This document shows, piece by piece, positions 4,240-33,498 of a stretch of DNA of 64,000 bases (position 1 is its first letter; each line of letters begins with the position of its first letter). Source of the stretch: Agarivorans aestuarii. GTDB lineage: Bacteria; Pseudomonadota; Gammaproteobacteria; Enterobacterales; Celerinatantimonadaceae. The position numbers and the translations under genes were made by a program. Below the pieces are notes generated by a model that was not told the origin of the DNA, ran no database searches, and saw only the letters and a list, made by a program, of their open reading frames with translations. The DNA is taken from NCBI RefSeq assembly GCF_019670125.1, contig NZ_AP023033.1:3275001-3339000 (forward strand), in the 5' to 3' direction.

Positions 4240-4710
4240 TTAAACTTCTATCTGATCAATCAAGTTGATCATTTCCAAAGCGCTTAGGGCAGCTTCGGTA
4301 CCTTTATTACCCATTTTCGTGCCAGCGCGTTCAATCGCTTGCTCGATAGACTCAGTAGTAAGCACGCCAAAGGTGACTGGAATATCAAATTCCATCATAA
4401 CTTGAGCTAAACCTTTATGGCATTCGTTGGCCACTAGTTCAAAGTGATAAGTACCACCACGAATTACCGTACCTAAAGCAATAATAGCATCGTACTTTTT
4501 GCTTGCTGCAATGCGTTTAGCAGCCAGTGGGATTTCTACTGCACCCGGTACGCGAACAACAGTAATGTTGTCATCGCTAATTCCACCTTGGCGAGTCAGG
4601 GTATCCACTGCGCCAGATAACAAACTTTCATTAATAAAGCTGTTAAAACGAGCGATAACAATAGCCACTTTAGCGTTTGGTGTAGCTAAATTTGCTTCAA
4701 TTACTTTCAT
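4240..4710 (-). CDS. ribH: 6,7-dimethyl-8-ribityllumazine synthase
   Basis: Condenses 5-amino-6-ribitylaminouracil with 3,4-dihydroxy-2-butanone 4-phosphate to give the riboflavin precursor lumazine. It has 156 residues. Active-site landmarks are [12 protein letters not shown] (aromatic residue stacking on the pyrimidine), [29 protein letters not shown] with the catalytic histidine, and [20 protein letters not shown]. This is the pathway enzyme that uses the product of ribBX encoded about 100 bp upstream. It forms icosahedral or pentameric assemblies in other species; the assembly cannot be read here. Confidence 0.97.
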
Positions 4711-4813
4711 ACTTAATTCTGCCTTTTCTTTGAGTCCATCAAAAAAATCGCGCTATTCTAGCACAACTAATCTGCTAGGCCCTTAATAAAATTATTTGTC
4801 ACTAAATCTATAA

Positions 4814-5926
4814 CTATTCTTGGTCGATGTACTCAACCACTTCCAAGCCAAAGCCCGATAAAGCATGGTAGCGTTTCGGCGAACTTAACAAACGCATTTT
4901 ACTCACACCCAAATCGGCCAATATCTGCGAGCCCACACCCACGGTACGTGATGCGCTTTGCGCTTGTTTTTGCGCTGGGGTTTCACCACGATCTTGCAAA
5001 GCAAAGGCTTTAACTTGGTCAATCAAATTATCAGCTTTATCATCGGTACTAAGTAGCACCAGCACGCCATTTTCTTGAGCAATTTTTTCTAGCGCTTTAT
5101 CCAGCGGCCAGCTCATCTTCCCAGCCCGGTCACTACCTAATAAATCACTAAAGGTATTATGCAAGTGCACACGTACCAGAGTGGCTTCATCTTCTTTTAT
5201 CTCACCGGCTTGCATCACAAAGTGAACTTTTTCATCGATGGTATCGCGGTAGGTAATCAGCTTGAAATCACCGTGGCGGCTAGGCATTTTACATTCTGCT
5301 ACTCGCTCAATAGTGGTTTCATTGTTATTACGGTATTCGATGAGATCGGCGATAGTGCCCATCTTTAACCCATGTTCTTTACAAAACACCTCAAGATCAG
5401 GGCGACGAGCCATGGTGCCGTCTTGATTAAGGATCTCAACAATCACAGCTGCTGGTTCTCGACCAGCTAACCTTGCCAAATCAGTTCCCGCTTCAGTATG
5501 TCCAGCGCGAGTAAGTACCCCACCTTCTTGCGCCATTAGCGGGAAGATATGCCCAGGCATAACAATGTCACTAGGCTTAGCATCACGGGCAACGGCTGCT
5601 TGCACAGTGCGCGAGCGATCTGCTGCAGAAATTCCGGTAGTCACGCCTTGCGATGCTTCAATAGATACCGTGAAATTAGTAGCAAACTGCTCGGTATTTA
5701 CATCTACCATCAGCGGCAACTTTAGTTGCTGACAGCGCTGTTTAGTCATGGGTAAACAAATCAATCCACGCCCATAGGTAGCCATAAAGTTAATGGCCTC
5801 TGGTGTTACCATATCGGCTGCCATGATGAGATCGCCTTCATTCTCTCGATCTTCATCATCCATTAGCACCACCATTTTTCCATGGCGTAAATCTTCAATA
5901 ATTTCTTCGATACTGCTTAGTGACAT
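4814..5926 (-). CDS. ribBX: 3,4-dihydroxy-2-butanone-4-phosphate synthase with degenerate GTP cyclohydrolase II-like domain (RibBX)
   Basis: Residues 1-200 are a complete RibB domain that makes the four-carbon riboflavin precursor from ribulose 5-phosphate: [18 protein letters not shown] is the acidic metal-binding loop, and [26 protein letters not shown] and [20 protein letters not shown] follow. Residues 205-370 resemble GTP cyclohydrolase II, but the zinc-binding C-x10-C-x-C segment is replaced by [15 protein letters not shown], which has no cysteine, and the arginine/glycine-rich GTP loop is lost. The C-terminal half should therefore not be catalytic as a cyclohydrolase, and a separate ribA should exist elsewhere. 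This is the arrangement known as RibBX in proteobacteria. Confidence 0.92.
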
Positions 5927-5990
5927 AGCAAAACCTTTCTTACCTTTGGGGATAGTATTTATTGTTATTAGCGCATCTTAATTGGGCGAG

Positions 5991-6647
5991 CTATTTCATA
6001 AAGCCGTGCTGCGCCAAAAATGCAGTATTTATTTTTGAATCGTTAGTGTTCTCATCAGCATAGCCGATTAAACGCTCCACATAGCGAGCGATAACATCAA
6101 CTTCTACGTTAATTTTTTGCCCAGGCGACCAAGCACCAATGGTTGTTTGCTGGGCAGTATGGGGAATAATGGTTAAACGTAGCTGTTGCTGCTGTACTTC
6201 GTTCACCGTTAAGCTAATGCCATCTACGGTTACGGATCCTTTATGGGCTATGTAACGCGCCAGATCATTAGGAACCTTTAGCCAAATATTAATCGCACGA
6301 GCGCTGGGGCTAATGCTTACTACCTCTGCTAAGCCATCAACATGGCCACTGACAATATGACCACCAAAGCGATTAGTCGCAAGCATGGCTTTTTCAAGGT
6401 TAACCTTGTCACCTTGTTTGCATTTAGCCAGTGAAGTTAAACTTAACGTTTCGGTAGATACATCGGCGCAAAAGTGCTCATTGCTGAAGTCGACCACGGT
6501 TAAACATATACCATTTACCGCGATGCTATCGCCAAGCCTTACATCCGACATATCTAGACCAGTGCTGGCGATGTTTAATCGTACGTCACCGCTGCGTTTT
6601 TCAATGCGAGAAATCTTGCCTAGGGCTTCAATTATTCCAGTAAACAT
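5991..6647 (-). CDS. ribE: Riboflavin synthase, alpha subunit
   Basis: Dismutates two lumazine molecules into riboflavin and the ribitylaminouracil substrate. Its 218 residues hold two tandem lumazine-binding repeats: MFTGIIEALGKI...GDSIAVNGICLTVVDF in the first half and GGHIVSGHVDGLAEVV...HKGSVTVDGISLTVNEV in the second. MFTGIIE at the very N-terminus is diagnostic. Its ATG overlaps the ribD stop codon (TAATG), so translation is coupled. E. coli calls this gene ribC. Confidence 0.97.
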   Translation of the reverse strand: MFTGIIEALGKISRIEKRSGDVRLNIASTGLDMSDVRLGDSIAVNGICLTVVDFSNEHFCADVSTETLSLTSLAKCKQGDKVNLEKAMLATNRFGGHIVSGHVDGLAEVVSISPSARAINIWLKVPNDLARYIAHKGSVTVDGISLTVNEVQQQQLRLTIIPHTAQQTTIGAWSPGQKINVEVDVIARYVERLIGYADENTNDSKINTAFLAQHGFMK

Positions 6648-7780
6648 TAGTGTGTGCCCTGTGCTTGCGGGATCCAGATAGTTTTAATGTCGGGGCCAAT
6701 TCGGCGAGTTTCAAGGCATTGCCAAGAATTTAACGCACTCATCGACTGATACCCCTCTAAGCCCACCAAACTGTATGCATCGGCTCCCATCAATAAACCC
6801 GCTTGATAACAAATAAGTTGATCAACTAAGTTGGCTTGAATTAGAGCCGCAGCAAAGTTTGCCCCAGCCTCAACCCAAATATCATTTACTTCTGCTTCAG
6901 CTAGCTGCTGCATTAATTGCGGCAAAAAGCTTGGCGTGTCTTCAATCACCAGCTGTTTTGCGGCTGGCAGTTGCGTTTGTGATTGATGGCCAGCCAACCA
7001 CAAAGACTCACTATTTTTAAAAATATTAAGGTCTTGAGCAGCTTCTGCTAAGCGTTGTTTACGGTCAATAATCACCCGTAATGGCTGACGCAGCAGTGTT
7101 TCATCAAGTTGCTCTGCAAGGCTGCCCAGCTCATTAAATCTCACGTTTAGGCTGGCATTATCGCGAATAACCGTAGTAGCGGTGGATAAAATAGCATGAC
7201 TGGCTGCTCGCTCTCGTTGCACATCGCTGCGAGACTGAGCGGAGGTAATCCACTTACTTTCACCATTGGCCAAGGCTGTTTTAGCGTCTATGGAACCCGC
7301 AAGTTTTAAGCGTACAAAAGGACGCTTGCGCTCTACACGACTGAGAAACCCTGGGTTAAGTGCGCGCGCAGCCTGCTCCATAAGACCAGTTCTAACCTCA
7401 ATACCAGCCTCCGCTAAGCGCTTAATGCCACGCCCAGCAACCTGTGGATTGGGATCTACCATAGCAATAACTACTTCGGCCACTTGCTGCTCAACTAACA
7501 TAGTGGCGCAAGCTGGCGTTCTGCCTACATGGCTGCAGGGCTCAAGGGTGACATAACAAGTTGCCCCTAAGAGGCTAAAACCGCGTTGCTTAGCGTCTGC
7601 CACAGCATTCACTTCAGCGTGCCCTTCGCCGGCTTTACGGTGAAAGCCTTCACCGATAATCTGACCGTCTTTCACCAATACACAACCCACATTTGGATTC
7701 GGTGCCGTGGTATATCTTCCGCGCTTGGCAAGAGCAATGGCCTTTGCCATAAACTGGCAATCTTGAACACTAAAGCTCAC
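6647..7780 (-). CDS. ribD: Bifunctional riboflavin deaminase/reductase RibD
   Basis: Deaminates and then reduces the pyrimidine intermediate of riboflavin synthesis. It has 377 residues. The N-terminal deaminase carries the zinc site H54-A-E56 (GEGHAEVNAV) and C82/C91 (PCSHVGRTPAC). The C-terminal NADPH-dependent reductase begins RPFVRLKLAGSIDAKTAL and contains DIWVEAGANFAAALI. It abuts nrdR (no spacer) upstream and overlaps ribE downstream, the conserved nrdR-ribD-ribE cluster. Confidence 0.97.
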   Translation of the reverse strand: MSFSVQDCQFMAKAIALAKRGRYTTAPNPNVGCVLVKDGQIIGEGFHRKAGEGHAEVNAVADAKQRGFSLLGATCYVTLEPCSHVGRTPACATMLVEQQVAEVVIAMVDPNPQVAGRGIKRLAEAGIEVRTGLMEQAARALNPGFLSRVERKRPFVRLKLAGSIDAKTALANGESKWITSAQSRSDVQRERAASHAILSTATTVIRDNASLNVRFNELGSLAEQLDETLLRQPLRVIIDRKQRLAEAAQDLNIFKNSESLWLAGHQSQTQLPAAKQLVIEDTPSFLPQLMQQLAEAEVNDIWVEAGANFAAALIQANLVDQLICYQAGLLMGADAYSLVGLEGYQSMSALNSWQCLETRRIGPDIKTIWIPQAQGTH

Positions 7781-24965: not shown

Positions 24966-25925
24966 ATGAATAAATTTTCTAGTGACAAAATTTCTGTAGG
25001 GATTAGTAGCTGCTTATTAGGCGAAGAAGTACGTTACGATGGAGGCCACAAACAATCTCGCTTTTGCCGCATAGAATTAGCCAAATATTTCGACTTTGAA
25101 CCCACCTGCCCTGAAATGGCAATTGGTATGGGTACCCCTAGAAAAACTATTCGATTAGTTCAGCAAGACGACATTATTAGCTTGCAAGCCAGTGATGGCA
25201 GCTTTGATGTGACCGAAAAGATGCAAGAATATGCAAAACGCCGCTTGCCTCAACTAGCCCACCATAGCGGTTACGTGGTATGTGCCAAATCGCCCAGCTG
25301 TGGCATGGAAAGGGTCAGCGTATATTCACCAGCTAAAAACAATGCTACCAAAGATGGCGTAGGCACTTTTACCGCAGAGTTAATTAAGGCTTATCCCTTA
25401 CTGCCTATTGAGGAAGATGGTCGTCTCAACGACCCAATTCTGCGCGAGAACTTCGTCAATCGTGTATTTGCTTATCACCAATGGAAAACGCTTGAGCATG
25501 AAGGCTTTACCGTAGCAAAAGTGCAAGACTTCCACGCCAAATATAAGTACTTATTAATGGCGCATCACCCAGCCAAATACCGCGAGCTTGGCCCTCTTTT
25601 AGCCAATATTAAAGGCAATGATGATAGCCAAGGTTTCGCTAGCTATATCGAAGGCTTCATGGGCATTTTGAAGCACAACTGCAGCCGCAAAAACCACTGT
25701 AATGTATTGCAACACTTGCAGGGCTATTTCAAACGCGAAATTACCGCCCAGCAGCGTGAAGAATTAGCCAAGCGCATTCATGAATACCGCGAAGGTTTAT
25801 TGCCTTTGCTAGTGCCTATTAGCCTTATTCAGCATTATTTGCGTGAGCACCCTAATCACTACGTTGCCAAGCAAGCTTACTTGGCCCCTCACCCCAACGA
25901 ACTAAAGCTGCGCTACAGTTTATAA
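24966..25925 (+). CDS. DUF523-DUF1722 protein (TudS-like domain plus YbgA domain)
   Basis: 319 residues in two domains. Residues 1-160 are DUF523: cysteines C16 (GISSCLLGEEVRYDGG), C48 (EPTCPEMAIGMGTPR) and C112 (AKSPSCGMERV) are the three ligands of the [4Fe-4S] cluster of the thiouracil desulfurase TudS. Residues 195-315 are DUF1722 (YbgA): YKYLLMAHHPAKYRELGPLL and NHYVAKQAYLAPHPNELKLR. The fusion is widespread in bacteria; 2-thiouracil desulfuration has been shown only for some DUF523 proteins. RBS AAAGGAGCTGACAGC. Confidence 0.88.
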   Translation: MNKFSSDKISVGISSCLLGEEVRYDGGHKQSRFCRIELAKYFDFEPTCPEMAIGMGTPRKTIRLVQQDDIISLQASDGSFDVTEKMQEYAKRRLPQLAHHSGYVVCAKSPSCGMERVSVYSPAKNNATKDGVGTFTAELIKAYPLLPIEEDGRLNDPILRENFVNRVFAYHQWKTLEHEGFTVAKVQDFHAKYKYLLMAHHPAKYRELGPLLANIKGNDDSQGFASYIEGFMGILKHNCSRKNHCNVLQHLQGYFKREITAQQREELAKRIHEYREGLLPLLVPISLIQHYLREHPNHYVAKQAYLAPHPNELKLRYSL

Positions 25926-25947
25926 GGTTTCCTTACTGCAATTGTTT

Positions 25948-25975
25948 GCCCAATCATTACTGATTGGGCTTTTTT
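25948..25975 (+). terminator. Terminator of the DUF523-DUF1722 gene
   Basis: 9-bp perfect stem GCCCAATCA/TGATTGGGC, 4-nt loop, followed by TTTTTT. Confidence 0.95.
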
Positions 25976-26135
25976 AGCTAACCCAATCAATACAAGACTC
26001 AATTTACATATTGTTACTCATTGCCAGTAAATACTGTGCTAAATTAGCGGAATTCGCCATAAAAACTATACTAGAAGGCGAAATACTAAAACTAGACGAC
26101 GCAAAATTTAGACTAAACGCTAACAAGAGAAAAAT

Positions 26136-27110
26136 ATGCATAAATTATTTAAGTTATCACTAATTGCTTCGCTAACCCTTGGACTTACCGCCTGTGGCAG
26201 CGATGACTCCAGCAGCCAACCCTCTACAGCATTGGTATCCTTTTCCATCGCCGACGCACCTGTCGATAGCGCCCAAGAGGTAAATGTAAGCTACGCTTCA
26301 TTAACCTTACAGCGCGCTGACCAAGATGATATTGAGCTGCCGATTGAAGACGAAAATGGTAACCCTATATCTATCAATCTACTTGACTATCAAAATGGTG
26401 ATAGCTTACTGGTGTTAAGTGATGCAGAGTTGCCAGTTGGTGAATACAGTGAGCTAATCATAAATACTTATGAGTGCCCGCAAAATCAAAACGGCGATAC
26501 TCAGTATTGCAACGTAGTAGAAGATTCAAACGCGGTATTACCTCTTAAAACCCCCAGTAATAAACTCCGCTTAGGTGGCTTTACAGTAACCACCGAGGGA
26601 ACGCAGGCCTATACTATCGACTTCAATTTAAGAAAATCTTTAGTGAGCACCGCTGGTGGCGCTAGCTACAACTTAAAACCTCATGGCGTAACTATTATCG
26701 ACAATACCACGGTTGGCAGCGTCTCGGGCACCGTAGACCCGAATCTTCTCTCCGCTGGTGAATGTGCCGCTGACACAGGTAATGTTGTTTACCTTTACAC
26801 AAGTCCTATAGCTGAAGAGTCGCTGCTAGGTGATGAGTTTGATCCAGAAATAGACACCGAGGTTCCCGCTAATGTCGTTCAGCCTTACGCTTCGAAAATG
26901 GTTCAACTAGATAGTGAAACAGGAGAATACGCTTACAGTTTTGCTCACTTACCCGCTGCAGATTATTTATTGGCATTTAGTTGTAGTGCCATAGATGATG
27001 ATCCAGAAATTTATGATGCTGTAATGATTGCAGACCCAAGTGAGCAGCAGGCCACTATCTCTGTAGTATCAGGCGAAACAGCAGAGTATAACTTTGTAGA
27101 AAACATCTAA
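26136..27110 (+). CDS. DUF4382 lipoprotein
   Basis: 324-residue lipoprotein: signal with lipobox LTAC (Cys20), a Ser-rich linker, then a DUF4382 beta-sandwich domain (ALVSFSIADAPVDSAQEVNV, LPVGEYSELIINTYECPQN, NLRKSLVSTAGGASYNLKPH). A second, less defined beta domain (YLYTSP...YAYSFAHLPAADYLLAFSC) follows from about residue 200 and resembles carboxypeptidase-regulatory-like folds. Cell-surface or periplasmic; function unknown. It stands alone with its own promoter region downstream of a strong terminator. The domain is common in marine gammaproteobacteria. Confidence 0.82.
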   Translation: MHKLFKLSLIASLTLGLTACGSDDSSSQPSTALVSFSIADAPVDSAQEVNVSYASLTLQRADQDDIELPIEDENGNPISINLLDYQNGDSLLVLSDAELPVGEYSELIINTYECPQNQNGDTQYCNVVEDSNAVLPLKTPSNKLRLGGFTVTTEGTQAYTIDFNLRKSLVSTAGGASYNLKPHGVTIIDNTTVGSVSGTVDPNLLSAGECAADTGNVVYLYTSPIAEESLLGDEFDPEIDTEVPANVVQPYASKMVQLDSETGEYAYSFAHLPAADYLLAFSCSAIDDDPEIYDAVMIADPSEQQATISVVSGETAEYNFVENI

Positions 27111-27192
27111 ACCCCAAGAAATGCACTTATAAGCTTCACCGAGGCTTGTAAGTGCACCGCAATTTAGCGACTGACCTCCAATAAGCTTTAAA

Positions 27193-28095
27193 CTACTGGG
27201 TTGAGATTAACTCTTCTAATTGCTGATGGCTTAAAAAGCCGCAAGCAGCACCTGCTTCACCTATTTTGTAAGAGGCAAAAGTTATTGCCCGCTGCAACGC
27301 TTGTTCAGCATCCTTGTTAGCTACATAGTAATGTAAAAAGCATGAAAACAAGGCGTCTCCTGCTCCAATGGTATTCACAATTTTACGTGTGCTTATGGCC
27401 GAAAAATGTTGAATATGTCCAGACTGCTGGGTATACAACAGAGCGCCATTGCTGCCTAAACCCATTACAATTACTTGGTTTTGATAGCGCTCTACCAGCT
27501 GCCAGATGAACTGGTGATAATCTCCTTCTACCTGCTCATCACTGAGAAACAATACATCAGCCGCAGTTAGAAACTGTTGGTTGTACTCATCCTCAATACT
27601 CCCAAGCGTATGCACATCTGTGGCAATCAACTTTCCTGCTTGCTTGGCTTGATCCAGCATCGGTCGCGCGAAATTAATGTTACACATTACTACTGCATCA
27701 GCCTGCGACAGGCTGTGAATTAGTAGCGGAGATGAATAACTGAGTTGCTGTATATCTTTAAGATCAACATGAATTTGCCGCTGCCCTTGTGGATCATACA
27801 AAATCACTGACTGCGGCGTACTTTGCATGCTCATATCTAAACAGGCATTTATTCGCGGTATTTTTGCTAGTGCTTGCTGTACTTGAACCCCGGCCATATC
27901 CGGCGCTAACAGGGTACATAAGTCTACTTCATCACCCAAGATTGCTAGGGCTTTAGCCACATTGTATGCCACCCCGGAGACACCGCTCTGAATGCCGTCA
28001 AAGGGATAAGTCACTGGGTAATAGTGTTGGGGAAAGCCTTCTATTTTAAGTGTGGTTTCTATATTCACTAAACCCGCAACTAGAATATGTGCCAT
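27193..28095 (-). CDS. PfkB/ribokinase-family carbohydrate kinase
   Basis: 300-residue cytosolic sugar or nucleoside kinase. GVSGVAYNVAKALAILGDEV is the substrate-site glycine motif and NTIGAGDALFSCFLHYY the catalytic PfkB signature 2 with the general-base aspartate. GLGSNGALLY is the ATP-site block. The N-terminus HILVAGLVNIETTLKIEGFP is unlike typical ribokinases and closer to uncharacterised PfkB members. No transporter or pathway gene is adjacent, so the substrate is unassigned. It is transcribed away from the sigma-factor cluster across a 200-bp gap. Confidence 0.87.
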   Translation of the reverse strand: MAHILVAGLVNIETTLKIEGFPQHYYPVTYPFDGIQSGVSGVAYNVAKALAILGDEVDLCTLLAPDMAGVQVQQALAKIPRINACLDMSMQSTPQSVILYDPQGQRQIHVDLKDIQQLSYSSPLLIHSLSQADAVVMCNINFARPMLDQAKQAGKLIATDVHTLGSIEDEYNQQFLTAADVLFLSDEQVEGDYHQFIWQLVERYQNQVIVMGLGSNGALLYTQQSGHIQHFSAISTRKIVNTIGAGDALFSCFLHYYVANKDAEQALQRAITFASYKIGEAGAACGFLSHQQLEELISTQ

Positions 28096-28296
28096 AAAGC
28101 TAACTCATTGAATATGCATGATGAATAACGCTAACACATCAATAAGCAACAACAAGCTTAAATGCTCGATAGAGCGACCCGCGTATTTTTTATTGCCTGC
28201 AGGCTTAATAAAAATCAGAAAGTTTTGCGTCTTTTAGTGAATTGCTTAGTCTTACTAAAAGTAATCAAAGATTTTAAACCTTGAGATCCTGTTTGT

Positions 28297-28836
28297 ATGA
28301 TATCTGAATGGCAAAACCACAAAGCCCAGCTTAGAAGCTATGTTAGCAAGCGGATAAATGACACTCACGCTGTCGATGACATCTTGCAAGATGTTTACAT
28401 CAAGGCCAGTAGCAATTTGCATCAACTTAAGTCAAAGGGCAGCCTAAAAAGCTGGTTATACCGTATCGCCCATAACACCATTATGGATTTTTATCGCCAG
28501 CAGAAAGCTTATGAAGAATTGCCTGAAGACTTGGTCGCAGAAGATCACGATAGTGGTAACCTCGCTCGTAAAGAGTTAGCAGAGTGCCTGCGCCCTCTCA
28601 TTGATGAACTGCCCGAAAAATACGGTACACCGCTTCGTTTAGCCGAGTTAGAAGGTTACTCACAACAACGTATCGCAGAACAGCTAGGTTTATCGCTCTC
28701 TGGCGCTAAAAGCCGAGTACAAAGAAGCCGAGTGAAATTTAGAGAACAAATGATGGCTTGCTGTGACTTTGAAGTAGGACAAGAGGGCATCACCGACTAC
28801 TCACCAAAAAAGACAAGCTCATCAAGTAAATGTTAA
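28297..28836 (+). CDS. sigZ: SigZ-like sigma-70 family (ECF-type) sigma factor
   Basis: 179 residues with sigma region 2 (DDILQDVYIKASSNLHQLKS, LKSWLYRIAHNTIMDFYRQQ) and region 4 (LDELPEKYGTP...LAELEGYSQQRIAEQLGLSL, GAKSRVQRSRVKFREQM). The C-terminal tail CCDFEVGQEGITDYSPK resembles the tail of SigZ-type factors, whose paired cysteines could sense redox or metal. No anti-sigma factor gene is adjacent. It is followed after 72 bp by a eukaryotic-type glutathione synthetase homologue and then a PatB-type aminotransferase, so it may control thiol metabolism; that link is inferred from position only. Confidence 0.85.
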   Translation: MISEWQNHKAQLRSYVSKRINDTHAVDDILQDVYIKASSNLHQLKSKGSLKSWLYRIAHNTIMDFYRQQKAYEELPEDLVAEDHDSGNLARKELAECLRPLIDELPEKYGTPLRLAELEGYSQQRIAEQLGLSLSGAKSRVQRSRVKFREQMMACCDFEVGQEGITDYSPKKTSSSSKC

Positions 28837-28908
28837 ATGCTGTTTGTCTGCAACAAAGCGGTTATCAAACAAGTTAATGCTCACTCCCACGAGTACTCTG
28901 GAGAATAC

Positions 28909-30399
28909 ATGCCCAATACAACGCGCCCTATTATTTCAGCTCAAATGATTCAAGAAATAACTGAATGGGCCCTTATGCATGGCGTAGCTTTTCGTCAAAC
29001 TGATAACTCTGCCAGGCATTGTCCGTTTAGTATTGCGCCAATAACCATGCCGCGTGAAGTATTCGAACACTTGCGTAGAGCCACATCTCTTATTACAAGG
29101 CTAATTAACAATGTGTCAGAAGATCACGACTTTCTTCAGTCGTCGCTCGCTAAAGTGGCAAAAGCGGAGCCCTTTTTTGAACGTTTATTAGCCCTGCACC
29201 ACCAAGCCCATGGTGACTCAACACATCGCTTATCACCTGCTAGAAAACCGTTGCTAATAATGCGTACCGACTTTATGGACGATCGACAACATGGCCCAAA
29301 AGTTATCGAATTTAATGGTATTGCTGCAGGCATGGCGCCGTTTGGCCAACGCGCAACAGAGCTACATGCTTTTATACAAAATCAATGGCCTCAGCTTTAC
29401 CAAACCTACCTAGAAGATAAGCACGCCACACCAGCAGAAAACCAAGCCATTGAGCAGCTCGCCCTTGCGATCGCTAAAGCAGCCAACAGCATTAAAGCAA
29501 GCTTTGAATCACGTGCTCAAGCATCTTTAGACGGTTTAGCGAGTAAACCAACCTTCTTAATGGTGGTACAAGAAAATGAAGACAATGTGTACGACCAACA
29601 CCTTCTGGAACTAGCTCTACAGAAACAAGGGATTCGCACCCTAAGGCGCACCTTCGAGCAACTTAGTACCCAATTATCCAGCGGCGATAATCAACGCCTA
29701 CTGTTAAAGGACGTAGGCGCTATTGATGTGGTATATCTTAGAGCCGGTTACCAATACGCTGACTACTACTCAACAACACGCAGCGAAAGAGTTTGCTGCG
29801 AAACCCTTAGCCAAACTAGGCTATTTATCGAGCAACACAAAGTAGCCGTAAACGCCACGTTTAGCCAGCAACTCGCCACCAGTAAAACCATGCAAATGCT
29901 CCTAACAAGCATGCCAGCAGAAGACTATGCCCGCTGGGGGTTAAACCTAGAAGATGCCAAGCTAATCAAAAGTGTCTTGGCAGATATGAAGCCAATAAAC
30001 CAAGCAACCATCGGCTGGTTTAATAGGCAGGCAGATAAGCAAGAATGGGTACTAAAAAACCAAGGAGAAGGTGGTGGACATTGCGTTTTTGGTGAAGAAA
30101 TAGGTAATAAACTTCAACAGTTAGCCCCTCATGAGTATGACGCTTGGGCTTTAATGCAGCGCTTATATCCACACGAACGCGAAGTCCCCACCATCGCAGT
30201 GCGTAATAGCACTCAAACCCACGTCGACGATCTGGTGAGCGAGGTAGGCTTATTTAGTGCTTATTACGATGAAGAACCAGCAACACCGCTAAACGGATAT
30301 GCTGGCTATCTTATTCGTAGTAAACCCGCGAGTGAGAACGAAGGCGGGATCCACAGCGGTAAAGGTATTTTAGATTCCTTGGTTTTAAGTGATGCATAA
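28909..30399 (+). CDS. Eukaryotic-type glutathione synthetase homologue (ATP-grasp)
   Basis: 496 residues that follow the eukaryotic GSS fold, not bacterial GshB. Conserved points: R119 in IMRTDFMDD; E134 and N136 (VIEFNG) as metal ligands; QENEDNVYDQHLLE; RRTFEQLS; R278 and Y281 in YLRAGYQYADYY; the glycine-rich lid VLKNQGEGGGHCVFGEE (381-397, E387 metal ligand); VSEVGLFSAYY; R470 in YLIRSKPASENEGGIHSG. Start ATG 28909 has GGAGAATAC before it; 24 upstream codons are excluded. It would join glycine to gamma-glutamylcysteine or act on a related thiol dipeptide. Probably acquired laterally at some point, as in other bacteria carrying this type. Confidence 0.87.
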   Translation: MPNTTRPIISAQMIQEITEWALMHGVAFRQTDNSARHCPFSIAPITMPREVFEHLRRATSLITRLINNVSEDHDFLQSSLAKVAKAEPFFERLLALHHQAHGDSTHRLSPARKPLLIMRTDFMDDRQHGPKVIEFNGIAAGMAPFGQRATELHAFIQNQWPQLYQTYLEDKHATPAENQAIEQLALAIAKAANSIKASFESRAQASLDGLASKPTFLMVVQENEDNVYDQHLLELALQKQGIRTLRRTFEQLSTQLSSGDNQRLLLKDVGAIDVVYLRAGYQYADYYSTTRSERVCCETLSQTRLFIEQHKVAVNATFSQQLATSKTMQMLLTSMPAEDYARWGLNLEDAKLIKSVLADMKPINQATIGWFNRQADKQEWVLKNQGEGGGHCVFGEEIGNKLQQLAPHEYDAWALMQRLYPHEREVPTIAVRNSTQTHVDDLVSEVGLFSAYYDEEPATPLNGYAGYLIRSKPASENEGGIHSGKGILDSLVLSDA

Positions 30400-30469
30400 G
30401 CTAAAAACTTGCGTCTTTTTTGTTAAGGCTGCGTCCTAACACTATCAACCTAAATCGATGGAAAACTTA

Positions 30470-31644
30470 ATGTTTCAAACCACCCCGAGCCACCAAGGTA
30501 TTAGCGACAAATTTATTAAGCATGATAGTAAAATGCTAAAGCAAATTTATGGCAGCGACCAGCTGACACCTTATTGGATGCTGATATGGATTTCCCCATT
30601 GCCTATCCAATCAGCCAAGCTATGCAGCAATTAGTAAACCGTGAGCAATACTCTTACGAATTTGATTCAGAAACCGTATTTAAGGCGATTGCTCATTGGA
30701 ATCAACAGCGCCACCGGCTTGACCTAAACCCCAAACATTTTGTGCAAGTTCCTGGGGTACTCAGTGCAATAGCATTGCTAATTCGCGACTTTACTCAAGA
30801 AGGCGACGGCGTATTAATTCAAACTCCGGTGTACCACCAATTTTGCCGTTTAATTGAATCTGCCGGGCGCAAAGCTGTGACTAGCCCGCTTAAGCTAGAG
30901 GGTGATCGTTACCTATTTGATTACCAAGATTTTGAGCAACAGCTAAGCAGCGGCGAAGTGCGCATGGTGTTGTTATGTAACCCTCATAATCCGGTAGGTA
31001 GAGTGTGGACTAAACAAGAGTTGCAACAGTTAGTTACCATTGCCAAAAAGTACCAGGTAATGATTATAAGTGATGAAGTTCATGCCGATATCGTGTTTGA
31101 AGGTGCAAGGTTCACCAGCATGGCCTCGTTAAACTACGACAACAGCCTCACCATTATTGGCTCCCCCGCTAAAAACTTTGGCTTAAATAGCATTGCTAAT
31201 GGCTATATCTATAGTGATAACCAAGCCTTACGAGAAAAAATCAAAGCAAGCTCGGTGTCTATGTCACTCGACCACGGCAATGCATTTAGTTTGTATGCCA
31301 CCATTGCAGCCTACCAGCATGGCAAAGAGTGGTTCGAAGAGTTTTTGGCTTATACCCAAGAAGTAAGAAACTGGATTATGGCATTTATGGCCAAGGAACT
31401 CCCCCAAGTTAAAGCCTTTCTACCCGAAGGTACCAATCAAATATGGTTTGATTTCTCCGGCTTAAACTTAGCCCCAGAGCAATTAAAAGAGCTATTAAGC
31501 CAGCATGCTAAACTCGCGCTAACACCCGGCACCTGGTTTGGTGAAATAAACGAAAATTATTATCGGATGAACTTTGCCTCACCGTTAGAAAAAGTCCAAG
31601 CGTCACTGCAGCAACTCAAAACATCAATTAGCCAATATCGCTAA
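30470..31644 (+). pseudogene. MalY/PatB-family aminotransferase (C-S lyase) with a one-base frameshift
   Basis: PLP fold-type I enzyme related to MalY/PatB cystathionine beta-lyases. From ATG 30470 (GATGGA ribosome site) the frame reads 37 residues ending LTPYWM, then shifts. The rest continues in another frame from 30574 (DADMDFPIAYPI), giving 355 more codons. Family members read WVADMDFP or WMADMDFP here, so one G is missing at 30580/30581 (ATGGCTGAT expected, ATGCTGAT present). Later motifs are intact: CNPHNPVGRVWTKQEL, ISDEVHADIVF, PLP lysine in SPAKNFGLNS and RMNFASP. Either a recent inactivation or a sequencing error; a TTG start at 30574 would lose the conserved N-terminus. Confidence 0.85.
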
Positions 31645-31652
31645 TCATTTAG

Positions 31653-31698
31653 ATAAAGGCAGAGGCCGGCGATTAAAATTACCAAGCTCTGCCTTTAT
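31653..31698 (+). terminator. Long-armed hairpin after the PatB-like gene
   Basis: 12-bp perfect arms ATAAAGGCAGAG and CTCTGCCTTTAT with a 22-nt loop, 9 bp past the stop codon. Only a short T-stretch is present, within the right arm. Probable terminator. Confidence 0.6.
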
Positions 31699-31712
31699 GA
31701 TGACTAAATAGC

Positions 31713-31759
31713 CAAACTGGCAAACTGGCAAACTGGCAAACTGGCAAACTGGCAAACTG
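31713..31759. repeat. 8-bp tandem repeat (CAAACTGG)n, about 5.9 copies
   Basis: Five perfect CAAACTGG units and a 7-base sixth (31713-31759), all identical. Intergenic, about 105 bp upstream of the orphan membrane-protein gene and just past the terminator hairpin. Perfect short arrays of this kind slip during replication, so copy number may vary between strains. Confidence 0.97.
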
Positions 31760-31865
31760 CTAGAGAGGAAAGCTCTGAGCGTTTAAATAGTATTTTCTTT
31801 TTAATTAATAGCTTAGTGGTAGCTTTATTCACATAAAAAAGACGCAAGCTCACTTAGGAATGAAA

Positions 31866-32561
31866 ATGGAAGAAAGCAAACTCTTCAAAAAAATATGGCG
31901 ATTTAATGCCATTGTAATTATGTTAGTTGGAATTGTAGGTCTAGCGCTAAGCCTATTCGCTGCCATTACAATCTACCAAGACATTACACGTGATAGAAAC
32001 GTAAGAAACATTGTTAATATTGAAGAAACACAGGAAGATAAAGAAAAGTGGCGGCTAGGAAATCTAATAAGCATTAATGGATCTAGCGTAATAATGGTCC
32101 CACTCTATTCAGAGCAAAATATAAGCACAGCGTCATACAGCAAGTCGGCATCGTCAACCAGAAACTACCTCTTCATTAATGTAGAAACAAATAGTAAGTA
32201 TTGGTTATTTGATAAAAATGACTACTTGATAACAAGCATTCATCAGTTACCAAATACCTCTTATTCAGAGCAAACCAAAGAAACTAAAGCCATTCTTTAT
32301 TACGTGGTTAAGTCGGACACTAATAACAATAATTCGTTAACATCATCTGATCTAAAAACCGTAGCTATATCGAAGCCAAATGGCCAAGAGTACCTTGAAT
32401 TACTAAAAGATATCGACTTTGTAAATGGATACAAAACTGTCGGCGAGCACTCTGTAATCATCGTATTTCAACGCGACAATATCGCTTATTCGGCAACTAT
32501 TAATTTAGACAATTTAACAATCTCTAACGAGGAGCCATTGCCTAGCATGGAGCCCAAGTAG
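31866..32561 (+). CDS. Single-pass membrane protein of unknown function
   Basis: 231 residues. A basic N-terminus (KLFKKIWRF) precedes one strong membrane helix (about residues 13-36, NAIVIMLVGIVGLALSLFAA). The remaining 190 residues are polar, rich in Asn, Ser and Thr, with predicted beta strands, presumably on the periplasmic side. I recognise no family. The AT-rich composition and Asn-rich stretches (DTNNNNSLTSS) differ from neighbours, suggesting a lineage-specific or transferred gene. Two in-frame ATGs exist; TAGGA is 6 nt before 31866, so that one is preferred over 31860. Confidence 0.7.
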   Translation: MEESKLFKKIWRFNAIVIMLVGIVGLALSLFAAITIYQDITRDRNVRNIVNIEETQEDKEKWRLGNLISINGSSVIMVPLYSEQNISTASYSKSASSTRNYLFINVETNSKYWLFDKNDYLITSIHQLPNTSYSEQTKETKAILYYVVKSDTNNNNSLTSSDLKTVAISKPNGQEYLELLKDIDFVNGYKTVGEHSVIIVFQRDNIAYSATINLDNLTISNEEPLPSMEPK

Positions 32562-32613
32562 AACCCATCTTCGTATAAAAAAATACTTTTGCTCAACGCT
32601 ATATGCCAGCTAC

Positions 32614-32640
32614 AAAAAAGCCCGCTAAGTGCGGGCTTAC
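32614..32640 (-). terminator. Terminator of cvfB
   Basis: 8-bp stem AAGCCCGC/GCGGGCTT with a TAAGT loop. On the minus strand it is followed by TTTT. It lies about 25 bp past the cvfB stop. Confidence 0.9.
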
Positions 32641-32661
32641 CTGACTAATGAAAAACGCTCA

Positions 32662-33498
32662 CTATTCTTTGTCGTTTAACACTATGCCAGTTTTACTAAT
32701 GGTGATTAAACCTTCTTTATAAAGCTTACCAATGGCTTTTTTAAAGGTACCTTTACTTACACCAAAGATAGCAGAAATGGCTTGCGGGGTACTTTTATCA
32801 CTCAACGCCAAGTAGCCTTGCTCTTCGCGAAGCTTAGCTAAAATGGTGTCGCCAATATCAATGGCTTTTTGTATGCCGATGGGCTCTAAACTTACGTCTA
32901 GCTTTTGGTCTTCTCGTACTTTTTGAATATAACCAGTACCTGCATAACCCGCGCGAATACGCTTAAACACTTGATCGTAATACACTACGCCCCAGTGCTT
33001 GTTATTTACCACTGCTTTGTAACCTAGCTCGGTACGCCCAGCGACCAATAACTCAACTTTGTCGCCACGCTTATACTTGTGGTCTGACTTATCGATGTAA
33101 CGATCAAGCTTGTTGCTGGCGGTAATGCGTTGCTCGTTGTCTAAGTAGACATACACTACGTAATGACGATCAACTTCCATTGGCTGCTGTTGCTCACCAA
33201 AAGGTAAGAACAAATCTTTGTCTAGGCCCCAATCGAGGAAGATCCCCACATCATTAATGTCTTTTACCTGCAAGTTAGCGCACTCGCCAACTTGCACTAA
33301 AGGTTTCTGCAAGGTGGCCAGCAAGTTACCTTGGTTATCGCGGTAAACAAATACTTCGATTTGTTCGCCAATACTCAACTCAGCCGGGAGCTCTTTGCTC
33401 GGCAGCAAAATATCACCAAACTCGCCACCTTCTAGGTAGGCACCTAAGTCAGCCATTTCAATCACGGCTAGTTGATTAAGGCGTCCAATTTCTAGCAT
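32662..33498 (-). CDS. cvfB: S1-domain RNA-binding protein CvfB/YitL
   Basis: 278 residues: three S1-like OB domains followed by a winged helix. MLEIGRLNQLAVIEMADLGA is the usual family start; DINDVGIFLDWGLDKDLFLP marks the second S1-like domain; SAIFGVSKGTFKKAIGKLYK with EGLITI is the C-terminal winged helix. Staphylococcal CvfB binds RNA and affects virulence-factor expression; the role in gammaproteobacteria is not settled. The frame is open 69 bp further upstream, but AGAGAGAAA sits directly before ATG 33498 and homologues start there. The chemoreceptor gene upstream is separated by about 90 bp from this start. Confidence 0.9.
   Translation of the reverse strand: MLEIGRLNQLAVIEMADLGAYLEGGEFGDILLPSKELPAELSIGEQIEVFVYRDNQGNLLATLQKPLVQVGECANLQVKDINDVGIFLDWGLDKDLFLPFGEQQQPMEVDRHYVVYVYLDNEQRITASNKLDRYIDKSDHKYKRGDKVELLVAGRTELGYKAVVNNKHWGVVYYDQVFKRIRAGYAGTGYIQKVREDQKLDVSLEPIGIQKAIDIGDTILAKLREEQGYLALSDKSTPQAISAIFGVSKGTFKKAIGKLYKEGLITISKTGIVLNDKE

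Follow-up and report, generated by a model that had tools for sequence, protein, structure and literature searches.

A SigZ-linked homologue of eukaryotic glutathione synthetase in Agarivorans aestuarii and the thiol module to which it probably belongs

The stretch of DNA considered here (the window) comprises 64,000 nucleotides of Agarivorans aestuarii, positions 3,275,001 to 3,339,000 of contig NZ_AP023033.1, in a genome that is a single contig of 4.69 Mb. Our subject is a cassette of three genes within it, sigZ, gss and patB. They encode, respectively, an extracytoplasmic function (ECF) sigma factor, a homologue of the eukaryotic-type glutathione synthetase (GSS) and a member of the MalY/PatB family of C-S lyases. 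All three are on the plus strand, and they follow one another in the order and over the span that had originally been predicted from the DNA alone.

Genes of the sigZ-gss-patB cassette

SigZ (28297-28836, 179 amino acids) scores 224.7 bits against TIGR02959 (cut-off 168.65) and 245.9 bits against NF007215 (cut-off 212), thus passing both. It has a cysteine in the linker, a CC pair after region 4 and a cysteine in the tail. In 48 SigZ rows, which include duplicates from two doubly fetched genomes, the linker cysteine is kept in 47, the members of the CC pair in 45 and 48, and the tail cysteine in 37. The cassette is flanked by a PfkB-family kinase gene on one side and a 233-amino acid open reading frame (ORF) on the other; no anti-sigma gene was seen adjoining sigZ, which agrees with the original prediction as far as the neighbouring genes go, no genome-wide anti-sigma search having been made. 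This lack of an adjoining anti-sigma gene and the conserved cysteine tail make it plausible that SigZ senses stress directly, through its own cysteines.

Two corrections to the original prediction are needed for the genes that follow. The gss ORF, present as described, opens at 28837, but its best start is the ATG at 28909, which is preceded by GGAG; gss (28909-30399) is accordingly assigned a product of 496 amino acids, predicted to be a ligase joining gamma-glutamylcysteine (gamma-Glu-Cys) to an acceptor, X. The patB gene (30458-31644) is classed as PatB-type, but a frameshift had been overlooked: its start (30458 on) and its remainder lie in different frames, with the break near 30580. The frameshift represents either genuine decay or an assembly error. 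Against the PatB model TIGR04350, with its curated cut-off of 340 bits, the frameshifted window copy scores 324.4, and copies in the sister genome G001 and in G040 and G007 score 342.9, 347.0 and 337.6. The G001 copy is intact (395 amino acids); the ORF of Vibrio jasicida is short (304 amino acids).

Homologues of gss are found in 15 of 119 related genomes and in two of the 369 genomes of a class-wide sample, the window genome being counted in both. When named genomes were scanned with a pattern, 166 gss loci could be confirmed; the best 80 of these, together with those of the 15 relatives, make up a set of 95 loci, 93 after two duplicates are dropped. Five genes upstream and three downstream of gss were counted as its neighbourhood. 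Among the 93 loci, SigZ is a neighbour in 41, a second gshA (gshA2) and/or the first of two ATP-binding cassette (ABC) transporter genes in 33, PatB in 14 and an ArsR-type regulator in eight. The sigZ-gss linkage, whose conservation had been proposed as a check, thus recurs across genera and is not a chance association. The order sigZ-gss-patB is found in Psychromonas, Vibrio comitans, Shewanella, Ferrimonas and Moritella. In many Vibrionaceae the module adds gshA2 and two ABC transporter genes, which supports the original assignment of these genes to thiol metabolism; the order is sigZ-gshA2-ABC-ABC-gss in Aliivibrio fischeri and several Photobacterium, gshA2-ABC-ABC-gss-sigZ in Enterovibrio and sigZ-patB-gshA2-ABC-ABC-gss in Vibrio jasicida. 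A representative GshA2 (L138) passes TIGR01434 (505.5 bits, cut-off 393.3), for which the lower-scoring full GshA copies score 463-510 bits. All 23 genomes with a gshA2 cluster have another GshA match besides the cluster copy; in two (G486 and G508) one of the two matches is fragmentary, the piece in G508 having an internal stop, and the broken copy seems to be the housekeeping one. Representatives of the two ABC proteins show a likeness to SmdAB and a more remote one to CydDC, with every score under the family cut-offs.

The cassette lies in an accessory stretch, 28140-32607 (no strand assigned), which holds sigZ, gss, patB and the 233-amino acid ORF. The stretch is missing in a sister genome (G004) that has the same flanking genes, with ~89-91% identity on both sides, and gss was not found in five of seven genomes of the genus; 28140-32607 is therefore accessory, by gain or by loss. 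The 233-amino acid ORF (31860-32561, plus strand) lies outside the conserved module, matches no Pfam family and, among the first 15 loci, is seen only here and in G001. Most of 25925-27208 is likewise missing in G004, as is a DUF4382 gene adjoining the cassette (26136-27110). Compared with G001 in 400-base steps across 28001-33200 of the window, identity is 93.5-99.5% over the cassette, as against 73-75% in the adjoining pfkB (27201-28000), a contrast that suggests a mosaic and perhaps an exchange of the cassette. A tandem repeat with an eight-base unit, noticed by eye, occupies 31711-31760, just 3' of patB.

A shared predicted promoter and its relation to SigZ

Reading of upstream sequences brings to light a bipartite, ECF-type promoter, TTGCGTCTTTT-N12-CGTCTTA, before sigZ and patB. 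One CGTC block belongs to TTGCGTCTTTT and another to the element after it, and 16 nucleotides separate the two blocks. The predicted SigZ promoter of sigZ-gss is at 28225-28254 (plus strand; -35 element TTGCGTC at 28225-28231, -10-like element AGTCTTA at 28248-28254) and that of patB at 30409-30438 (plus strand; TTGCGTC at 30409-30415, CGTCCTA at 30432-30438). The seven-base -35 motif alone also matches inside genes (for example at 7647 of locus L077), and only bipartite sites are counted for that reason. A third copy of TTGCGTCTTTT (31847-31837, minus strand) was not retained as a promoter, there being no match to the bipartite pattern even with one mismatch.

The strict pattern finds 60 sites in the 95 loci, as against two in a reversed-sequence control. 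The non-redundant sites number 58, in 46 of the 93 loci, and 54 of these lie no more than 420 bp upstream of sigZ (14), gshA2 (13), gss (11), patB (10) or the first ABC gene (6). The distance from promoter to ATG is often 60-75 bp (72 bp for sigZ of the window). The dedicated transcriptional control that had been suggested for this cassette would, on these sequence comparisons, consist in a promoter shared across many genera. In the window genome, exact TTGCGTC-N17-GTCYTA matches only twice, at the sigZ and patB sites. Allowing one mismatch gives four matches, the same number as in the backward control, so that only the exact matches carry weight there. One of the mismatch sites precedes a glutathione S-transferase (GST)-like gene, whose end is rich in Cys and behind which lies a second SigZ, and fits TTKCGTCYTTT-N12-CGTCT exactly; the other, which falls within what looks by eye like a pyruvate kinase gene, we take to be a chance match.

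The 119 related genomes contain 17 exact matches to TTKCGTCYTTT-N12-CGTCT, spread over 14 genomes; the backward control contains none. SigZ (at E 1e-25 or better) is encoded in 13 of these 14 genomes and in seven of the 105 others (Fisher 1.3e-11, for genomes that are not independent); outside the window's family the corresponding counts are nine of 10 and four of 97. The association between gss and SigZ is looser, SigZ occurring in eight of 15 gss genomes vs 12 of 104 others (p 5e-4). In G031 and G040 a long distance separates gss from patB, and each of the two genes has a promoter site of its own, which supports co-regulation independently of linkage. The broken patB of the window genome and the unlinked patB of G031 and G040 are what one might expect if unrelated genes had merely come to lie side by side, but the linkage recurs in many genera and the promoter is common even to genes that are unlinked, which already contradicts chance; we regard that explanation as extremely improbable.

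The promoter also varies with the sigma factor. By a motif rule in region 4, 47 SigZ rows divide into 31 of type A (LSxxKSR), 14 of type B (YSTLKSR) and two others; strict sites were sought within 8 kb of SigZ (3 kb in smaller regions). Such a site accompanies 29 of the 31 type A rows, all 29 with G as the base that precedes CGTC; it accompanies eight of the 14 type B rows, all eight with T. There is no exception (Fisher 2.6e-8, a value that overstates the case because the SigZ rows are related). With a looser pattern, five of the remaining six type B rows have a T-type site and one (L184) has none. At C1:2034554-2035877 of the window genome (6555-7878 of L151) the second SigZ gene lies behind the GST-like gene, whose protein ends in SSCCVVSSCC, and there is a T-type promoter before the GST-like gene.

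The CGTC-N16-CGTC repeat could also be read as the operator of a DNA-binding regulator, with SigZ as a mere neighbour. Its halves recur in the same orientation at an interval of 20 bp, roughly two turns of the helix, and of the 13 gss-free regions around SigZ that were retrieved, seven (those of G009, G011, G031, G040, G050, G054 and G069) have no site beside SigZ. Yet the presence of the site tracks SigZ across genomes, the base before the first CGTC changes with the region-4 subtype, and spacing and position suit an ECF promoter. An operator is, in our judgment, very unlikely, and we continue with the reading that SigZ recognizes the promoter.

Several observations besides those seven regions weigh against that reading, or at least against its simplest form. 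The locus set leans to close relatives, and phylogenetic independence cannot be claimed for the subtypes and the promoter letters. A single row among the 47 (the second SigZ of the window genome, which is also one of the eight type B rows with a strict site) was entered by hand, the rest having been picked by script. The pattern TTKCGTCYTTT-N12-CGTCT misses both window sites and everything in G001 because the second elements differ by one base: at sigZ of the window AGTCTTA has A for the usual C, and at patB CGTCC replaces CGTCT. In G073, one of the 14 genomes with the promoter, SigZ is absent at E 1e-25. G005 has SigZ and patB without gss, and no promoter before patB; in G031 and G040 the sites precede gss and patB and none is beside SigZ. 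In 37 of the 93 loci there is neither an adjacent SigZ nor a strict promoter; when 23 such or doubtful loci were searched with looser patterns, nine yielded no site, including all four ArsR loci among the 23 (L029, L032, L134 and L136), and L127 yielded only an unconvincing one. These siteless loci argue that SigZ is one of several regulators.

The GSS homologue and its predicted pocket

The assignment of the gss product to the eukaryotic-type family, as originally predicted, finds support in its sequence, its fold and a phylogenetic tree. The protein passes PF03917 (E 3.7e-62; 210.7 bits, cut-off 25) and PF03199 (E 6.1e-21; 75.4 bits, cut-off 20.9), and its nearest solved relatives in a sequence search of the PDB are the potato, soybean, yeast and human enzymes. 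An AlphaFold model (pLDDT 78.8, pTM 0.83, the active-site loops being of low confidence) matches human 2HGS, yeast 1M0W and potato 5OES in Foldseek, with TM scores by query length of 0.71-0.77; glutathionylspermidine-type ligases score far lower. In a tree made by a quick method, with long branches, a branch with 99% SH-aLRT support separates 93 bacterial rows from four eukaryotic ones; the tree is confined to these sequences, other ATP-grasp groups being absent from it, so that the bacterial rows are merely one side of that branch. Taken together, the Pfam matches, PDB search, fold and tree rule out a non-GSS ATP-grasp identity.

Gss is an additional gene. The window genome has canonical gshA (625.6 bits, cut-off 393.3) and gshB (457.8 bits, cut-off 299.05) elsewhere, outside the cassette, and GshB is above its cut-off in all 30 of the gss genomes examined (15 relatives and 15 named genomes), so that replacement of GshB by the GSS homologue is ruled out. 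Eight of the 30 have a further GshB-like gene, at 235-249 bits and under the cut-off of 299.

In 95 bacterial rows (two of them duplicates; human numbering), R125, E144, N146, E214, N216, Q220, R267, Y270, K305, K364, E368 and E425 are kept without exception, R450 is kept in 94 rows and Q211 in 93. The Mg ligands E144, N146 and E368 are thus all retained, as are the glycine-rich lid and the substrate arginines to which the original prediction drew attention. Conservation of the motifs EDNVYDQ and IAAGM is biased, because these were the seeds of the search; His482 was not a seed. According to PMC5919673, the glutamate of the dipeptide is bound by residues of the types R, E, two Q, N and Y, and its cysteine by one Arg together with the backbones of two Ser. 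In the GSS homologue Ser149 and Ser151 are replaced by Ala and Gly, and the NN of the lid by HC (His and Cys each in 92 of 95 rows). The acceptor pair of glycine-using enzymes, A462-A463, is not present: His occupies the first position in 95 of 95 rows and Ser the second in 92 of 95. In legumes this pair determines a preference for glycine or beta-alanine, soybean homoglutathione synthetase owing its preference for beta-alanine to Leu-Pro, as set out in PMC3783977 and PMC5919673. The retained gamma-Glu-Cys contacts and the changed acceptor pair together suggest that the donor should be gamma-Glu-Cys and that the acceptor may differ; the GSS homologue is predicted from its sequence to be a gamma-Glu-Cys-X ligase, with X perhaps other than glycine.

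The product may nevertheless be plain glutathione, the gene being a second glutathione synthetase with which the module merely raises the glutathione supply under stress. The gamma-Glu-Cys contacts and catalytic residues would be kept in that case too, and in PMC5919673 nematode Clade 2 GSS is described as retaining a preference for glycine although the acceptor-pair positions are not conserved. The uniform change of the pair and of the lid speaks against it, as does retention of GshB in every gss genome examined. Moreover, the glutathione synthase equivalog model TIGR01986 is not reached (245.4 bits for the window homologue and 236.5 for a plasmid homologue, vs a cut-off of 329.8). We consider a plain second synthetase a real but distinctly minority possibility.

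What gss makes matters beyond Agarivorans. A GSS homologue is present in 352 of 72,556 plasmid records, for the most part from Enterobacteriaceae and mainly from Escherichia (208) and Salmonella (102), with ~50% identity in the 13 enteric records listed; phage records gave no match. The plasmid copy examined has the same His-Ser signature, with no SigZ-type site upstream. In two of four plasmid records examined an ArsR regulator and a permease are near gss (L222, for example at 4256-7759, and L223), and all four annotate it simply as 'glutathione synthase'. Given this spread and this annotation, the true product is of practical bearing.

Stress, the proposed module and known systems

Genes with arsenic-related or electrophile-related affinities recur around gss and SigZ. 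The SigZ promoter type precedes arsH-like genes adjoining sigZ in three genomes that lack gss (G081, G098 and G102; the first and third are above the TIGR02690 cut-off, the second is assigned by likeness), and it precedes GST-like genes in G000, G005 and G080. In G086 a looser-pattern site precedes sigZ, next to an arsH-like gene. Loci L171, L172, L173 and L186, from genomes without gss, show this pairing of SigZ with neighbouring arsH-like genes and this promoter type. A methylarsenite-selective ArsR with a Cys pair is known, as is an ArsP associated with it. In the eight loci already referred to, seven of which are without an adjacent SigZ, the ArsR-type regulator that adjoins gss has an ECC close to its end. 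Some loci also have a permease. An ArsP_1 permease is beside gss in L134 and in a plasmid; the permeases examined (that of L134 and three others) are all ArsP_1. In L034 (7862-16643) the start of gss overlaps the permease gene of an ArsP-like cluster, and the run of ArsR-like, GAPDH-like and MFS-like genes there resembles an arsenic island by eye. The nearby ArsR, ArsP-family permease, ArsH and GST genes suggest a thiol-reactive stress, metalloid or electrophile, and we infer that the inducers would be thiol-reactive metalloids (trivalent ones, for example), soft metals or electrophiles. The two ABC half-transporters in the operon of many Vibrionaceae and the patchy, accessory spread of gss (15 of 119 relatives) might instead point to an exported thiol peptide serving metal scavenging, signalling or a natural product rather than detoxification. 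A stress role agrees better with the ArsR, ArsP_1, ArsH and GST genes that, in relatives, lie nearby or have the SigZ promoter type before them, and an exported peptide of that kind seems to us unlikely.

The whole is probably best explained as a thiol module that is accessory, inducible and under the control of an ECF sigma factor of its own. Thiol-reactive stress would be sensed directly by the cysteines of SigZ, which would then recognize TTGCGTCTTTT-N12-CGTCTTA and turn on its own operon, sigZ-gss, together with patB and, in relatives, the second gshA and the two ABC transporters. The GSS homologue would use ATP to ligate gamma-glutamylcysteine to X, giving a gamma-Glu-Cys-X thiol beyond the housekeeping glutathione, and cysteine S-conjugates would be the substrates of PatB, whose gene is broken in this strain. 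A bolder version can be put forward tentatively, as more doubtful than probable: that in Gammaproteobacteria the eukaryotic-type GSS makes a previously undescribed gamma-Glu-Cys-X thiol, with a private supply of gamma-Glu-Cys in many Vibrionaceae and dedicated export by the ABC pair, and that SigZ is a one-component metalloid sensor acting through its CC and tail cysteines. The analysis provides the ECF family SigZ with a concrete candidate promoter and target set in marine Gammaproteobacteria. For bacteria already equipped with glutathione genes, its prediction is a further thiol of low molecular weight.

A literature search (SigZ with glutathione, GSS, ArsH or Vibrio, and bacterial eukaryotic-type GSS) found nothing on this system, and no promoter or target set for SigZ of these bacteria, in the portions of the literature accessible to it, and comparison must be made with its several parts. 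With the eukaryotic enzymes (human 2HGS, yeast 1M0W, potato 5OES) the GSS homologue shares sequence family, fold and the ATP, Mg and gamma-Glu-Cys residues; it differs from them at the acceptor pair, the lid and Ser149/Ser151, and in being bacterial, near a sigma gene and in genomes that retain GshB. Legume homoglutathione synthetase (3KAL) is a GSS variant altered at the same two acceptor residues, according to PMC3783977, but there the pair is Leu-Pro and the acceptor beta-alanine. The cyst nematode GSS-like proteins (5OEU, 5OET) are likewise repurposed enzymes of eukaryotic type, but their dipeptide pocket has, according to PMC5919673, lost its glutamate half, which is kept here. The exporters CydDC and SmdAB are relatives of both ABC proteins of the Vibrionaceae operon, which fall under the family cut-offs and are absent from the window cassette. 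In CorE of Myxococcus, an ECF factor described in PMC3107203 and PMC8999054, copper exerts its control via a Cys-rich domain at the C-terminus, and the linker has a CXC; SigZ resembles CorE and CorE2 (ECF238) in having no known anti-sigma factor and in placing cysteines in the linker and C-terminal tail. SigZ falls outside that group as defined by the linker CXC and the Cys-rich domain, having a single conserved linker cysteine, no CXC, and a CC pair and tail cysteine in a short tail. Among bacterial SigZ proteins (TIGR02959) that of the window is a member above the cut-off, set apart by the promoter and the target set proposed for it here.

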